This document shows, piece by piece, positions 221 through 42,096 of a stretch of 42,782 bases of DNA. The DNA comes from Blautia sp. (GTDB lineage: Bacteria; Bacillota; Clostridia; Lachnospirales; Lachnospiraceae): contig JARIAR010000068.1 in the NCBI GenBank assembly GCA_029257805.1, forward strand, positions 1 through 42,782. Reading direction: 5' to 3'. Below the pieces are notes generated by a model, which saw nothing but the letters and a program-made list of their open reading frames with translations, made no database searches and had not been told where the DNA came from. Position 1 is the stretch's first letter, and every line of letters begins with the position of its first letter. The position numbers and the translations under genes were made by a program.

Positions 221-310
221 CGGAGAAGGAGGGATTTGAACCCTCGCGCCGCTATTAACGACCTACTCCCTTTCCAGGGGAGCCCCTTCGGCCAGCTTGG
301 GTACTTCTCC
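221..310 (-). tRNA. tRNA-Ser (anticodon GGA)
   Basis: The minus strand folds as a class II tRNA. Its acceptor GGAGAAG pairs with CTTCTCC, the T-arm contains GGTTCAAATCC, and a long variable arm is typical of tRNA-Ser. The anticodon loop CTGGAAA gives anticodon GGA, which reads UCC/UCU. It is 90 nt long and the 3' CCA is not encoded. It lies about 100 nt downstream of the second tRNA-Ser and directly upstream of the rRNA-type promoter. Confidence 0.95.
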
Positions 311-411: not shown

Positions 412-497
412 CGGAGAGGGTGGGATTCGAACCCACGCGCCCTTGCGGACAAACGGTTTTCAAGACCGCCTCGTTATGACCACTTCGATACCTCTCC
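412..497 (-). tRNA. tRNA-Ser (anticodon UGA)
   Basis: The minus strand gives an 86-nt class II tRNA with acceptor GGAGAGG/CCTCTCC, a GGTTCGAATCC T-arm and a long variable arm. The anticodon loop CTTGAAA gives anticodon TGA, which reads UCA. CCA is not encoded. It is the first gene after the promoter at 549-577 and is probably co-transcribed with tRNA-Ser(GGA). Confidence 0.95.
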
Positions 498-37152: not shown

Positions 37153-37653
37153 TTAAAATCCTCTGATCTCCTCATCTTCCGATCCGGTTTTACAAATAGA
37201 ACGAATTTCCAAAAAGTAGCTGTATTGATCATTTACTTTTACTTCCACACGATCTCCCACCTTATGCCCTTTTAATGCTTTCCCAATAGGAGACTCAATA
37301 CTGATCCTATTTTCCATGGAATTTCCACGGATAGACGTCACAAGCTTATATGTTTCCACTTCATCCTCTTCTTCAAAATATACCTCTACAACGTCATCCA
37401 TTCCCACTTCATCCTCCTTAGAAGAATCGGAAATGATCGTAGCAGTTTTCAACATATTTTCCAAATAGCGAATACGGCTCTCATTTTGATTTTTATGTTT
37501 TTTGGCAGCATAATACTCAAAATTTTCACTTAAATCTCCCTGAGCACGTGCTTCCTTTACTGCTTCTATCGCTTCTTTTCGTATTACCAGTTTACGATGC
37601 TCTATTTCCTGCTCTATTTTTTCTACGTCTTTTTTTGTAAGTTTTTCCTTCAT
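37153..37653 (-). CDS. greA: GreA/GreB-family transcript cleavage factor
   Basis: The 166-residue product has an N-terminal coiled coil (VEKIEQEIEHRKLVIRKEAI) with the loop tip GDLSENFEYYAAKKHKN. That tip keeps the Asp and Glu that GreA uses to help stalled RNA polymerase cleave backtracked transcripts. The C-terminal FKBP-like domain has ISIESPIGKALKGHKVGD. Its ATG overlaps the stop of the GTPase/nuclease fusion by four bases (ATGA), so translation is coupled. It may be a second Gre paralogue, since it diverges from typical GreA in the central region. Confidence 0.85.
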   Translation of the reverse strand: MKEKLTKKDVEKIEQEIEHRKLVIRKEAIEAVKEARAQGDLSENFEYYAAKKHKNQNESRIRYLENMLKTATIISDSSKEDEVGMDDVVEVYFEEEDEVETYKLVTSIRGNSMENRISIESPIGKALKGHKVGDRVEVKVNDQYSYFLEIRSICKTGSEDEEIRGF

Positions 37654-40346
37654 TTTTCTCCCTCTCCCTTTCTTGTCTTATCTACAAATTCCCTCACATC
37701 ATCTGAAACATGATCAAAAAGATAACTTCTGCTACTCTGGCGCTTTGTATGCCATTCCTCTAAAATAGATCTTGATGCTTCCTCAATTTCCTTTTGAAGC
37801 CCTTTCGCGGAAAGCCGTACTGCACCCTGTCCCATGATAATCATCTGTTCCAAACCATCAGAAGTAGCTACCGTAACCGAATGATTTCTCCCAAGCTTAT
37901 GCACAGTTTTTTCAATATACTGGTCCGCTGTCTCTGCTTCTTTTGTATACACTACGTGAATGTTATGATACTGCAGGATCTCTTCTCTGTGTCCCTCTAC
38001 TTTATACGCATCAAAAACAAGGATCAGTATACATTTTTTCATTCCCTGATAATTGGACAAAATGTCCATCAACTTATCCTGAGCTGCGTGAATGTCTGAT
38101 TTTGCAAGTTCACGAAGGTCTTCCCATGCAAAAATAATATTATATCCATCTACAAGAAGATATTCTTCTCCTGTCTTTTTCACAGAACGAGATGGACCAC
38201 TATAAAAATCCGGTGTACGAACTACCCTTTTTGCCGGTGTTCTTCGTTCCTGTTTTACAGTGCCAAATGTCCGCTCAAAAATTTCCTGTAATTCTTTTTC
38301 TTCCTCATAACTTCCTGCATATCTGGACATTGGAGGCACGTACGCTACTTCTTCTTTTTGTTCTTCTTCCGACTCCGCTGCATATCCCAGATGCATATAA
38401 TCCTCTACCTGATTCCAGGGAACCACAAATCCTGCTCCATGCGCACAAAATACAGAACCTGTTGGATTCTCCAGATCCCGTTCCGAATCATAATTAATAT
38501 CTTCTACGATCTCTTCCTGATTCTTACATGGCTCATATCCTTTCAGTGTACAGAACAGGCGACCTTTCCCTCCTGTATAAGCAAGTACCTGTTTCTGATA
38601 ATCGCGCATCTGTGCAACGGAAACACTCCCCTTTAAAATACTCATCTCTTCTTCCTGTTCGGGAGGCAGAAACGTTCCCTGCATTTTCTGGATGTCGGAC
38701 ATTGCCCTTCCGATCATCCCGTTTGGAACCTCTAATCGAAATTCATAATAAGGCTCTAACAAAATACTCTTTGCCTTTTTCAGTCCCTGACGGACAGCTC
38801 TATATGTTGCCTGACGAAAATCCCCGCCCTCTGTATGTTTCAAATGAGCTTTCCCTGCTACCAGAGTAATCTGTACATCTGTCAGTTGAGAACCGGTCAG
38901 CACTCCTTTATGTTCTTTCTCCTCCAGATGAGTCAGAACAAGCCTCTGCCAGTTTCGATTCAACATATCCTCACTGCATGCCGTAAAAAACTGCAATCCG
39001 CTTCCTCGTTCTCCCGGTTCTAAAAGAAGATGTACTTCTGCATAATGGCGAAGAGGTTCAAAATGTCCAACTCCTTCCACCGGCTCTGCTATCGTTTCCT
39101 TATATACAATGCTGCCTGCATCAAACTCTACCGCTACATGAAAGCGATCCCAGATTAAATGTTTCAACACATCAATCTGCACTTCCCCCATAAGCATCAC
39201 ATGAATTTCTTCTAAATGACTGTCCCATACAATGTGAAGCTGCGGATCTTCTTCCTCCAGTTCTTTTAATTTTTTCAACATCTGGTGTATGTCACATTGA
39301 TCCGGAAGAATCACTCTATAATTTAAAACCGGCTCTAAAACAGGAAGTACAGAATCACTCTCTATACCAAGCCCCTGCCCCGGATACGTTGCAGTTAATC
39401 CGGTGACTGCACAAACACTTCCAGCCGCAACTTCCTTTTCCATATCATATTTTTCTCCCGAATAAATACGAATCTGATCTGCCTTTTCCTCCCATATTTC
39501 ATCCGGACAACCAGATTCCCGCTCGGAAACATCCACAGACTTTCTATTCGTTAAAAGGCTTTTAACCTTTAAAGTCCCTCCGGTAATCTTCATGTAAGTA
39601 AGACGATTTCCCTGAGCATCTCTGGCGATTTTATAAACTTTTGCTCCGAATTCTTTCGGATAAACAGGTGCCTCTGTATATTGTTCCAGCCCCCTCTGAA
39701 AAGCTTCTACCCCTGTCATCTTTAATGCAGAACCAAAATAGCAGGGGAAAACTTTTCTCTGTCGAATAAGCCGGACAATCTCTTTTTTTTCTAAATCCCC
39801 TGTTTCTAAAAAAGATTCCAGAGCTATTTCATCACATACTGCAAGACTTTCCAGAAATTCCTCCCGGTTTTCGCCTTCTGTAAAATCCACACAATTTTCA
39901 TGCAGTCGTTTTTTCAGTTCTTCCATAAGAACTTTTTTGTCTGTTCCTTCCTGGTCCATTTTATTTACAAATAAAAAAACCGGAATTCCGTATCGTTCCA
40001 ACAGGCGCCAGAGAGTCGCCGTATGCCCCTGCACGCCATCTGCCCCATTGATAACCAGAATTCCATAATCCATTACCTGAAGTGTACGCTCCATTTCTGC
40101 TGAAAAATCCACATGTCCCGGTGTATCCAGAAGCGTTACTCTCATATCACCTATATCCAGCATTGCCTGCTTGGAAAAAATAGTAATTCCCCTCTCCCTT
40201 TCCAGTTCAAATGTATCCAGATAAGCATCCCCATGATCTACTCTTCCAAGCTTTCGTATCTTACCACTCAAATAAAGCATACTTTCTGAAAGGGTGGTCT
40301 TTCCTGCATCCACGTGAGCCAGAATTCCAATTACAAGTTTCTTCAT
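37650..40346 (-). CDS. TetM-like ribosomal GTPase fused to a Rae1/YacP-type NYN nuclease domain
   Basis: The 898-residue protein starts with an EF-G/TetM-type GTPase: GILAHVDAGKTTL (P-loop), ERERGITI, DTPGHVDF and VNKMD. Domains II-V follow, with LLEPYYEFRLEVPN and a C-terminal LKGYEPC like ribosomal protection proteins. After a charged linker (about 640-725) comes a NYN/PIN-like domain: YLLVDGYNIIFAW (Asp733), LVFDAYKVEG (Asp779), YTKEAETADQYIEK (Asp808) and VATSDGLEQ (Asp830). These line up with B. subtilis Rae1, an A-site mRNA endonuclease. The start at 40346 has GGAGGAG upstream. Coupling to greA is by ATGA overlap. Tetracycline resistance is possible but not supported by context. Confidence 0.85.
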   Translation of the reverse strand: MKKLVIGILAHVDAGKTTLSESMLYLSGKIRKLGRVDHGDAYLDTFELERERGITIFSKQAMLDIGDMRVTLLDTPGHVDFSAEMERTLQVMDYGILVINGADGVQGHTATLWRLLERYGIPVFLFVNKMDQEGTDKKVLMEELKKRLHENCVDFTEGENREEFLESLAVCDEIALESFLETGDLEKKEIVRLIRQRKVFPCYFGSALKMTGVEAFQRGLEQYTEAPVYPKEFGAKVYKIARDAQGNRLTYMKITGGTLKVKSLLTNRKSVDVSERESGCPDEIWEEKADQIRIYSGEKYDMEKEVAAGSVCAVTGLTATYPGQGLGIESDSVLPVLEPVLNYRVILPDQCDIHQMLKKLKELEEEDPQLHIVWDSHLEEIHVMLMGEVQIDVLKHLIWDRFHVAVEFDAGSIVYKETIAEPVEGVGHFEPLRHYAEVHLLLEPGERGSGLQFFTACSEDMLNRNWQRLVLTHLEEKEHKGVLTGSQLTDVQITLVAGKAHLKHTEGGDFRQATYRAVRQGLKKAKSILLEPYYEFRLEVPNGMIGRAMSDIQKMQGTFLPPEQEEEMSILKGSVSVAQMRDYQKQVLAYTGGKGRLFCTLKGYEPCKNQEEIVEDINYDSERDLENPTGSVFCAHGAGFVVPWNQVEDYMHLGYAAESEEEQKEEVAYVPPMSRYAGSYEEEKELQEIFERTFGTVKQERRTPAKRVVRTPDFYSGPSRSVKKTGEEYLLVDGYNIIFAWEDLRELAKSDIHAAQDKLMDILSNYQGMKKCILILVFDAYKVEGHREEILQYHNIHVVYTKEAETADQYIEKTVHKLGRNHSVTVATSDGLEQMIIMGQGAVRLSAKGLQKEIEEASRSILEEWHTKRQSSRSYLFDHVSDDVREFVDKTRKGEGEK

Positions 40347-40428: not shown

Positions 40429-41763
40429 TTACTCAGCCAACTCTCCGGCATTTCCTTTTACAAGTCTTGTAAGCATTTCCAAAACTCCACTTACAAGTAC
40501 TGCTGCAATCGCAACTGCCACCCATCCAAGGCCCATGGAATATAACGGAAGCTGATCGCATAATTCTCCAATAACACCAAGAGAAACTTTTGACGTATCC
40601 AATACGAACAAAATACTAATGCACCCTACTGCTCCAATGGTACAAGGATAAATATACCGATTTCCCCTAATCCATGAATCACATAAGCCCAAAACAATCA
40701 AGACAATGGACATTGGATAAATCGCATTTAAAATAGGCACAGATATACCAAGAATTGTAGTTAATCCCTGATTACATACAAGGAAAGAAAATCCTGCAAT
40801 TAAATATACCCACTGCTTATAAGACAATTTCGTTGTAAGTTTTGAAAAAAACTGTGAAATAGAAGTAATCAAACCTACACATGTTGTCAGACAGGCAAGT
40901 GTAAAAATCGCAGCCAGAAGAATTGCTCCTGTATCACCAAACAACTGTTTTACAATACAACGTAATGTCCATGCTCCATTTTCCTGGATTTCATAAACAC
41001 CGGAACTTTTCATTCCCATATACGCAAGCATCAGATATACCGTTGATAAAATTGCTCCAGCAAAAACACCTGCATATACCGTATAACGGATCACGCCTTT
41101 TTTTCTTTCTACCCCAAGAGAGCGAATCGTCGTTGCAATCACAAGTCCAAAATTCAAAGCAGCGATGGTATCCATTGTCTGATACCCTTCCAAAAATCCT
41201 TTCACTACAGGCGCTTCTGCATAAGCAGTCTGTGCAGCTGCAATATTGGCATCTCCTCTGAAAACAAAATTTAAGAAAAGAAAAACCAATAAGGTAAGAA
41301 GACTTGGTGTCAAAAATTTCCCAATACGCTCTACCAGTTTGTTAGGAGTTAAAGCCAGCCAGCCTGCAAGAAGAAAAAATACCATAGAATACAAAACCAT
41401 ATAAATTTTCAAAGGAGCTGCTGCCGGTAAATACGGAGCAACCGCCATCTCAAAAGGTACCGATGCAGCACGGGGAATTCCAAGTCCCGGTCCTATTGAA
41501 ACATAAATTAATACAGTAAATACAATAGCAAATCTTGCATCTACCTTTTTTGCAAGTTTATCTAATCCATCAAACTGCGCAACTACAATAACTCCAAGCA
41601 CCGGCAAAATTACTGCCGTGATCAGAAAACTGGCAATTGCAAAAGGCATCTGTTCCCCCGCATTCTGTCCCAAAAATGGTGGAAAAATCAAATTTCCCGC
41701 CCCAAAAAAGAGGGAAAACAACATAAAACTGACTAAAAGCATTTTTCTCTTTCCTAACTTCAT
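40429..41763 (-). CDS. brnQ: Branched-chain amino acid:cation symporter (BrnQ)
   Basis: The 444-residue permease has about twelve hydrophobic helices and the family N-terminus (FMLFSLFFGAGNLIFPPFLG) with the GIPRAASVPFEMAVAP segment. BrnQ imports leucine, isoleucine and valine with sodium or protons. The start follows GAGGAGG. A T-box leader with an Ile-type specifier lies directly upstream. That implies induction when charged tRNA-Ile is low and supports the amino acid assignment independently of the protein. Confidence 0.95.
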   Translation of the reverse strand: MKLGKRKMLLVSFMLFSLFFGAGNLIFPPFLGQNAGEQMPFAIASFLITAVILPVLGVIVVAQFDGLDKLAKKVDARFAIVFTVLIYVSIGPGLGIPRAASVPFEMAVAPYLPAAAPLKIYMVLYSMVFFLLAGWLALTPNKLVERIGKFLTPSLLTLLVFLFLNFVFRGDANIAAAQTAYAEAPVVKGFLEGYQTMDTIAALNFGLVIATTIRSLGVERKKGVIRYTVYAGVFAGAILSTVYLMLAYMGMKSSGVYEIQENGAWTLRCIVKQLFGDTGAILLAAIFTLACLTTCVGLITSISQFFSKLTTKLSYKQWVYLIAGFSFLVCNQGLTTILGISVPILNAIYPMSIVLIVLGLCDSWIRGNRYIYPCTIGAVGCISILFVLDTSKVSLGVIGELCDQLPLYSMGLGWVAVAIAAVLVSGVLEMLTRLVKGNAGELAE

Positions 41764-41835: not shown

Positions 41836-42096
41836 TAAAAAAGAGCCATCCTGTAAAGGACGACTCTGTCGTGGTACCACCTTATTTCCCTGATTTCCAT
41901 CAGGCTCTGCCCGTATCTTTCAATACGCTTCACCTATAACGTGGCTTTACTCCGGCTCACCTACTCTGTTCAGTTCACTTCTTCGGGATGATTTCACTAT
42001 ACAGCTTCCTTAACTGCTTCCACCAACCGCAGTCTCTCTGTAAATTCCACTATACGCTACTTATTCCCATCAACGAATTTTATCTGTTTTATATTA
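41836..42096 (-). promoter_or_regulatory. T-box riboswitch, probably tRNA-Ile responsive
   Basis: The minus strand carries the invariant T-box core GGTGGTACCACG (41870-41881). Next comes a terminator hairpin (41843-41866: AGAGTCGTCCT pairing with AGGATGGCTCT through G-U pairs), then TTTTTT. Upstream is a Stem I with AGAGAG and GGTTGG-type distal elements, and a specifier context GTGAAATCATCCC. ATC (Ile) at 41990-41992 sits after GAA and before a purine, as specifiers do. It controls brnQ by antitermination. Confidence 0.9.

Follow-up and report, generated by a model that had tools for sequence, protein, structure and literature searches.

A translational GTPase fused to a Rae1-type nuclease, seemingly the sole Rae1 copy of many gut Clostridia

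The subject of this analysis is a single gene in a stretch of 42,782 nucleotides from Blautia sp. (Lachnospiraceae; assembly GCA_029257805.1, contig JARIAR010000068.1), which is the whole of the DNA analysed and is called the window throughout. The gene encodes one protein in which a translational GTPase is followed by a linker and a Rae1/YacP-type NYN nuclease domain, and GGAGGAG lies six bases before its ATG (Table 1). A first-pass annotation of the same DNA had read this 898-residue frame as a GTPase joined to an NYN domain, and the fusion is confirmed. An assembly chimera is ruled out, because 72 of the 80 named loci that were kept carry the same fused frame of at least 850 amino acids; the other eight have short or cut frames (L131, L139, L145, L155, L159), split frames (L146, L176) or a solo copy (L151). 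The linker varies from 60 to 109 residues in alignment A1 and from 65 to 168 in A4, with a mean identity to the window protein of 20–24%. In the predicted model the per-residue confidence (predicted local distance difference test) falls below 50 at linker residues 659–683 and 695–724, and the full-protein model (predicted template modelling score 0.61), with its disordered linker, leaves the NYN domain unplaced relative to the GTPase.

Table 1. Features of the fused gene and its surroundings in the window.
Feature	Position	Strand	Remarks
Fused gene, 898 amino acids and stop	37650..40346	-	Translational GTPase, linker, Rae1/YacP NYN nuclease
EF-G-type GTPase core, residues 1-610	38517..40346	-	G domain 4-224, III 338-408, IV 412-526, V 529-610
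Domain IV tip (loop III), residues 499-512	38811..38852	-	KAHLKHTEGGDFRQ
Subfamily-specific C-terminal extension, residues 607-655	38382..38528	-	C607, C634, W644, H652
Variable linker, residues 656-728	38163..38381	-	One short conserved helix, ~682-693
Rae1/YacP NYN nuclease domain, residues 729-898	37653..38162	-	Acidic centre D733, D779, D808, D830 and E812
greA paralogue	37153..37653	-	ATG overlaps the stop of the fused gene (ATGA); one of two greA genes in the genome
brnQ, branched-chain amino acid transporter gene	40429-41763	-	
T-box leader, upstream of brnQ	41853-42082	-	RF00230, 105.9 bits
Two tRNA genes, left end of the window	221-310 and 412-497	-	Rfam RF00005

The nuclease half is well defined. 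The region from residue 726 to 898, which the first-pass annotation had singled out for comparison with PF05991, gives a full-length match above the cut-off of 24.6 bits (172.9 bits, model positions 1–165 of 166), and structure comparison assigns the domain the Rae1 fold. The four aspartates named in that annotation (733, 779, 808 and 830) are invariant, together with E812, in 41/41 fused proteins of A1 and 73/73 of A4, leaving the acidic centre intact. D733, D808 and D830 align with D7, D81 and D104 of Rae1, and the columns of D81 and D104 hold Asp in 44/44 fused and 20/20 solo rows. These three residues and the aspartate of the VFDA motif, all present here, are presumably the catalytic residues of Rae1. 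Mean pairwise identity in the NYN core is 0.62 among fused copies, 0.55 among 20 solos and 0.68 for ten solos of the protein's own family, while the C-terminal tail stands at 0.31 in fused copies against 0.52 in solos of the same family. An Arg at Rae1 position 165, found in 20/20 solo rows, is kept in only 19/44 fused rows (8 gaps), as expected if docking had moved to the GTPase; the loss fits such a transfer of docking, and does not prove it. In Bacillus subtilis Rae1 the neighbouring change R166P is among the alleles classed as loss of function (PMC6613710, in excerpt). The PADLOC models gave no match for the whole fused protein or the GTPase half, and one weak match, to ThsB, for the NYN half (14.6 bits, E 0.0043).

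In trees, the NYN domains of the fusions group together as a single clade that falls within standalone Rae1 (91/61, recovered in 89% of bootstrap trees), and this clade adjoins the solo Rae1 of its own family (fused copies and those solos together, 96/92). By this placement the NYN domain is a descendant of standalone Rae1. In the GTPase tree the fused proteins and one NYN-less member share a clade, with the other solo GTPases outside it (100/99). Together the trees favour a single origin of the fusion, which is probable, with modest support for the NYN clade. Three solo NYN genes of the same family (L080, L082, L089) form a clade of their own (99/92) and score highly against the window NYN domain; no RlmB or SigH neighbour was detected at these three loci.

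The fusion is widespread, and it hardly coexists with a separate rae1 gene, which answers a genome survey proposed in the first-pass annotation. The family sample comprised 200 genomes of a family taken, from its named neighbours, to be Lachnospiraceae, each from another genus, and PF05991 is present in 179 of them; frames of at least 600 amino acids hold 135 of 150 PF05991 rows among the family matches listed, as judged by length only. Four of these genomes (G030, G061, G110, G145) have two matches. The order, class and phylum samples contain PF05991 in 103/117, 100/147 and 85/149 genomes. Over these three samples, and with G480 (21 bits, under the cut-off) dropped before counting, 277 distinct genomes carry the domain: 98 in frames of at least 600 amino acids, 175 in frames shorter than 260 and 4 between. 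Every genome with a frame of at least 600 amino acids also matches the GTPase subfamily described below (42 in the order, 53 in the class and 11 in the phylum sample, overlapping, from a comparison of lists by eye). A full-length solo copy accompanies only one of the 98 fused-length frames (in G301, where the fused frame is cut by a contig end), which makes fused and standalone Rae1 near-exclusive across the sampled genomes. The single PF05991 match of the window genome is the fusion itself; the assembly is 94.7% complete and a second copy is unlikely. The idea that a nuclease was added to a cell already having Rae1 therefore fails, as the fusion is the only PF05991 gene found in the genome. 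From these sequence counts, the fusion seems to be the sole copy of the A-site nuclease Rae1 in many gut Clostridia.

The GTPase half retains all of the G1–G5 motifs, including DTPGH (74–78) and NKMD (128–131), and D13, K16, T17, D74, G77, H78, N128, K129 and D131 occur in 44/44 fused rows. With these motifs, the catalytic His and EF-G-like domains, it is a translational GTPase of the EF-G/EF2 superfamily, to which searches with the whole structural model also lead; domain II has no Pfam match of its own. The best NCBIfam match is tet_protect (NF012153), at 416.5 bits against a cut-off of 775, and TIGR00484 (elongation factor G) is also below its cut-off (295.3 against 659.4 bits); the window genome has two further EF-G-like genes (contigs C11 and C65). 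Of ten rows labelled as ribosome-protection proteins (RPPs), seven were scanned against tet_protect. The Tet(M)/Tet(W)-type proteins L226, L227 and L229, from other sampled genomes, pass with 883, 853 and 819 bits, and L223, L224, L230 and L232 miss the cut-off (487–606 bits), so that part of the RPP-labelled group is RPP-like and not certified.

The residues at the tip of domain IV separate the two groups further. Loop III reads H-x-K-H-T-x-G-G-D-F-R in nearly all rows of the subfamily, with H504 and T505 in 72/72 fused and solo rows and H501 in 71/72, and YYSPVSTP-[AS]-DFR in five RPP rows of the Tet(M) type. Lys503 stands at the column of TetM Pro509 (K in 43/44 fused and 26/28 solo rows; Pro in 5/10 RPP-labelled rows), a residue that lies within the tetracycline site (PMC7456112 and PMC8161019, both in excerpt). 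The extension at 607–655 is common to the fused proteins and their NYN-less relatives, and the columns of W644 and H652 are gaps in 10/10 RPP-labelled and 2/2 EF-G rows. Among the fused proteins, no part of the GTPase is more conserved than domain IV (mean pairwise identity 0.74, against 0.61 for the G domain); its identity is 0.58 between fused and solo proteins and 0.28 between fused and Tet(M)-type proteins, for which the G domain gives 0.38. Fused proteins and NYN-less relatives form one subfamily (99* in one GTPase tree, 100/98 in the other), which adjoins the RPP-labelled rows in both (85 in one; RPPs 95/82 in the other), the rows placed being RPP-labelled genes of the sampled genomes, with references for Tet(Q), Otr(A), Tet(T) and TetB(P) left out. 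The window GTPase does not group with Tet(M/W). By curated cut-off, residues and tree, then, the GTPase is a subfamily distinct from the Tet proteins, and the earlier label "TetM-like" was too close. The fused group and the Tet(M)-type proteins probably work at the same ribosomal site and do a different job.

NYN-less relatives of the GTPase (L180, L194–L211 and L214–L222) have in common with the fusion loop III, a GHFEPLRHYAEV-type motif and the C-terminal extension; they differ in having no nuclease domain, and the standalone NYN gene, where the genome has one, lies at another place. One genome (G410) carries two such genes (L216:4183-6150, L217:4256-6199). In the family sample a solo GTPase of at least 600 bits accompanies standalone NYN in 9/10 genomes (9/11 counting G054, whose NYN frame is 260 amino acids and whose best GTPase match, at 435 bits, is RPP-like in look) and occurs in 0/20 NYN-less genomes. 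This co-occurrence is weaker evidence than it appears, because loss of a fused gene removes both halves at once. In the phylum sample, GTPase matches of E 1e-150 or better occur in 11 genomes, the same 11 that carry the fusion. Counted among the solo GTPases are G218 (a partial match of 516 bits), G208 (578 bits) and G082, with one internal stop. Left out of the co-occurrence counts were G033 (GTPase and NYN in separate adjacent frames of one contig), G272 (no NYN found, GTPase truncated by a contig end), the mid-length NYN frames of G289, G230, G351 and G487, G480, and the additional, fragmentary matches of G215, G241 and G424. No neighbour is common to the solo GTPase loci (at most 3/27).

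The surroundings of the fused gene offer little that is general. In the window, the gene starts 82 bases after brnQ, and a GC-rich hairpin between the two, seen by eye, is absent from the terminator scan list; read-through from brnQ into the fusion under amino-acid starvation is possible. The other greA gene of the genome lies on contig C32. Of the fusion loci, 11 show a GreA-like frame somewhere in the fetched stretch and only 6/113 have one within four genes, so greA does not generally accompany the fusion. In 16/20 fetched solo loci an RlmB-like gene lies near the standalone NYN, and RlmB or SigH was found near the fused copy in 0/40 fetched fused loci. Mobile resistance cargo is ruled out as the general case, with 2 of 72,556 plasmid records matching the whole protein at 80% coverage or more, namely a 518 kb record of Monoglobus pectinilyticus and a 252 kb record of Agathobacter rectalis. 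The Monoglobus fusion (L181) is annotated as "translation factor GTPase family protein". A Clostridioides difficile "plasmid" with an NYN gene has the chromosome-like order cysS - rlmB - NYN - sigH - tuf. Among phage records, 13 match the NYN half. For the GTPase half, 18 of the 19 annotated matches among 25 records listed are named Tet(M), Tet(O) or Tet(W), at ~30% identity, and because of these names phrog_6880 is probably Tet-type cargo. Viral contigs gave 66 pattern matches, none confirmed.

The reading that we favour, at a probability of roughly 0.55, is that the fusion represents a lineage-specific Rae1, encoded on the chromosome, that clears stalled ribosomes with its nuclease permanently attached to a ribosome-binding translational GTPase. 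Rae1 is an A-site mRNA endonuclease (PMC12320835 and PMC6613710, in excerpt), and Tet-type GTPases bind the A site of drug-stalled ribosomes, where GTP hydrolysis appears to serve release (PMC8161019, in excerpt); joining the two suggests the GTPase as the ribosome selector of the tethered nuclease. In such a cycle, the GTP-bound GTPase, with a domain IV tip built for the decoding centre, would dock on ribosomes whose A site stays empty, whether starved, drug-stalled or paused by sequence. GTP hydrolysis would release the GTPase or swing it away, and the NYN domain, on its tether of 60–168 residues, would then enter the same A site and cut the mRNA. The cut would create an empty-A-site substrate for transfer-messenger RNA (tmRNA), which with exonucleases would finish rescue and decay; tmRNA is encoded in the window genome. 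That the protein binds ribosomes, prefers those with a vacant A site and cleaves mRNA, and that the steps follow in this order, is our inference. The first-pass annotation had proposed that the fusion brings a nuclease to the very site it cuts. Its tether to a ribosome-binding factor is reasonable; simultaneous occupancy of the A site is unlikely, since domain IV and NYN would need the same space, and the two would have to act in turn or on different ribosomes. A fuller version, in which the GTPase subfamily, until now lumped with the Tet proteins, detects ribosomes whose A site is empty and yields it to the attached Rae1, as a GTP-driven surveillance nuclease and the dominant Rae1 activity of many gut Clostridia, with NYN-less members as an older partner or a general A-site clearing factor, is more tentative, and we put it somewhat short of an even chance.

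Several observations weigh against this account of a tethered, chromosomal Rae1. There is no conserved neighbourhood pointing to a pathway, the top neighbour family occurring in 11/113 fused loci, a set that includes some genomes fetched twice (e.g. L047 and L106). Of the 13 phage records matching the NYN half, two faecal "Bacteriophage sp." records, MT835563 and MT835514, also match the GTPase half just upstream (60% and 54% identity), in the order of the fusion, which counts against the rejection of mobile cargo; these may be phage or bacterial sequence. PF05991 is missing from 21/200 family genomes, and the function is therefore dispensable. Tet(M)-type proteins likewise show their highest conservation in domain IV (0.74, four rows), so its conservation alone is not specific, and the fused C-terminal tail (0.31) is hardly looser than that of all solos together (0.37). 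Inside the fused clade of both GTPase trees, at differing places and on a long branch, sits the NYN-less member from Ligilactobacillus salivarius, which means that the GTPase can be kept in the absence of the nuclease, or else that events were more complicated; a later NYN loss would be the simplest reading. That gene (L180:3986-5917) lies on a megaplasmid and adjoins rpsN (S14). The unfused pair travels together only partly: a solo GTPase is found in 12/59 solo-NYN and 0/14 NYN-less order genomes (p 0.11) and in 4/46 and 4/47 class genomes (p 1.0), neither significant; most solo Rae1 genomes do without this GTPase (47/59 in the order, 42/46 in the class), and G332, G335, G360 and G374 of the class sample have a solo GTPase and no PF05991 gene. 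Most Rae1 proteins manage without it, and what chiefly argues for a working link is the fusion as such.

Other explanations have to be set beside this one. The GTPase might have a translational role of its own, with the NYN domain an ordinary Rae1 whose local concentration is raised by the fusion and no mechanical coupling between them. The long, fast-evolving, low-confidence linker is what such a passive tether would look like, and solo GTPases occur with or without Rae1 and solo Rae1 mostly without the GTPase. Yet the trees point to one origin of the fusion, which has lasted through many families with a single apparent loss of NYN in the rows that were placed, and it hardly coexists with standalone Rae1, for which reasons we regard a passive tether as doubtful. 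A part in ribosome biogenesis, with NYN trimming rRNA or tRNA and the GTPase monitoring new ribosomes, could draw on the first proposal of NYN domains for rRNA and tRNA maturation (Anantharaman and Aravind, as quoted in the excerpt of PMC4342817) and on the RlmB-like neighbour of the standalone copies. This neighbour is absent from the 40 fetched fused loci, however, and the characterised relative Rae1 cuts mRNA in the A site with the same active residues and fold; a biogenesis factor is accordingly very unlikely.

A further alternative is antibiotic protection, that is, a ribosome-protection protein against tetracycline or another antibiotic that gained an RNase domain, as suggested by Atkinson 2015. 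In favour are the RPP-labelled clade as nearest group in the GTPase trees, tet_protect as best NCBIfam match, and the annotation of the Agathobacter rectalis fusion (L183:3974-6775) by NCBI as a TetM/TetW/TetO/TetS family tetracycline resistance protein, which is probably a misannotation. Set against these are the score of little more than half the tet_protect cut-off that three Tet(M)/Tet(W)-type proteins pass, Lys503 in place of Pro509 with the fixed H504/T505, the separate clade, and the rarity on plasmids. The gene is also carried in long frames by most of the listed family rows (135/150) amid changing neighbourhoods, and one genome (G348) encodes a Tet(M) (1512 bits, cut-off 1420) in addition to the fusion. 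Antibiotic protection is thus improbable as the function of the fusion, less so than biogenesis.

The architecture is not wholly new. Atkinson 2015 (PMC4342817, in excerpt) reported a YacP-like NYN domain in Tet proteins from ten clostridial species and suggested RNase-based antibiotic resistance; these are almost certainly the same architecture, classed there as Tet and here as a non-Tet subfamily, with a probable single fusion that is the only PF05991 gene of its genome. The earlier statement that no function is described for this architecture holds in so far as no functional study was found in open-licence full texts; the architecture itself had been reported. Rae1/YacP of B. subtilis (PDB 5mq8, 5mq9) is a standalone protein of ~170 amino acids, mostly encoded beside cysS, mrnC, rlmB and sigH in solo loci, whereas the domain in the fusion forms the end of a GTPase encoded at a different locus, and its C-terminus is less conserved; being GTPase-fused and away from RlmB and SigH, the fusion places a Rae1 domain in a new context and does not count as Rae1 proper. 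Compared with Tet(M)/Tet(O) (PDB 3j9y), its GTPase lacks a counterpart of Pro509, differs in its domain IV motifs, carries an additional C-terminal extension and scores below the family cut-off. SmrB and MutS2 are collision-sensing rescue nucleases that act on collided ribosomes, in MutS2 with the nuclease linked to an NTPase; they resemble the fusion as nucleases of stalled ribosomes and differ in having unrelated domains and no EF-G-like factor. As far as our searches go, what is new is the separation from Tet, the nesting in Rae1, the near-exclusivity with standalone Rae1, the probable single fusion and the NYN-less subfamily.

No function was found, in the literature searched, for the GTPase subfamily that the NYN-less relatives define. 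Taken together, the domains, trees and distribution suggest a one-protein device for clearing stuck ribosomes. If this is true, the protein would combine an EF-G-type factor and an mRNA nuclease in one chain, and the question of how Rae1 chooses its ribosomes would become testable, with the GTPase as selector. A widespread gene of Lachnospiraceae and other Clostridia would then be a translation quality-control factor, which matters for resistome counts, as the tetracycline-resistance label given to some of its copies is probably wrong.

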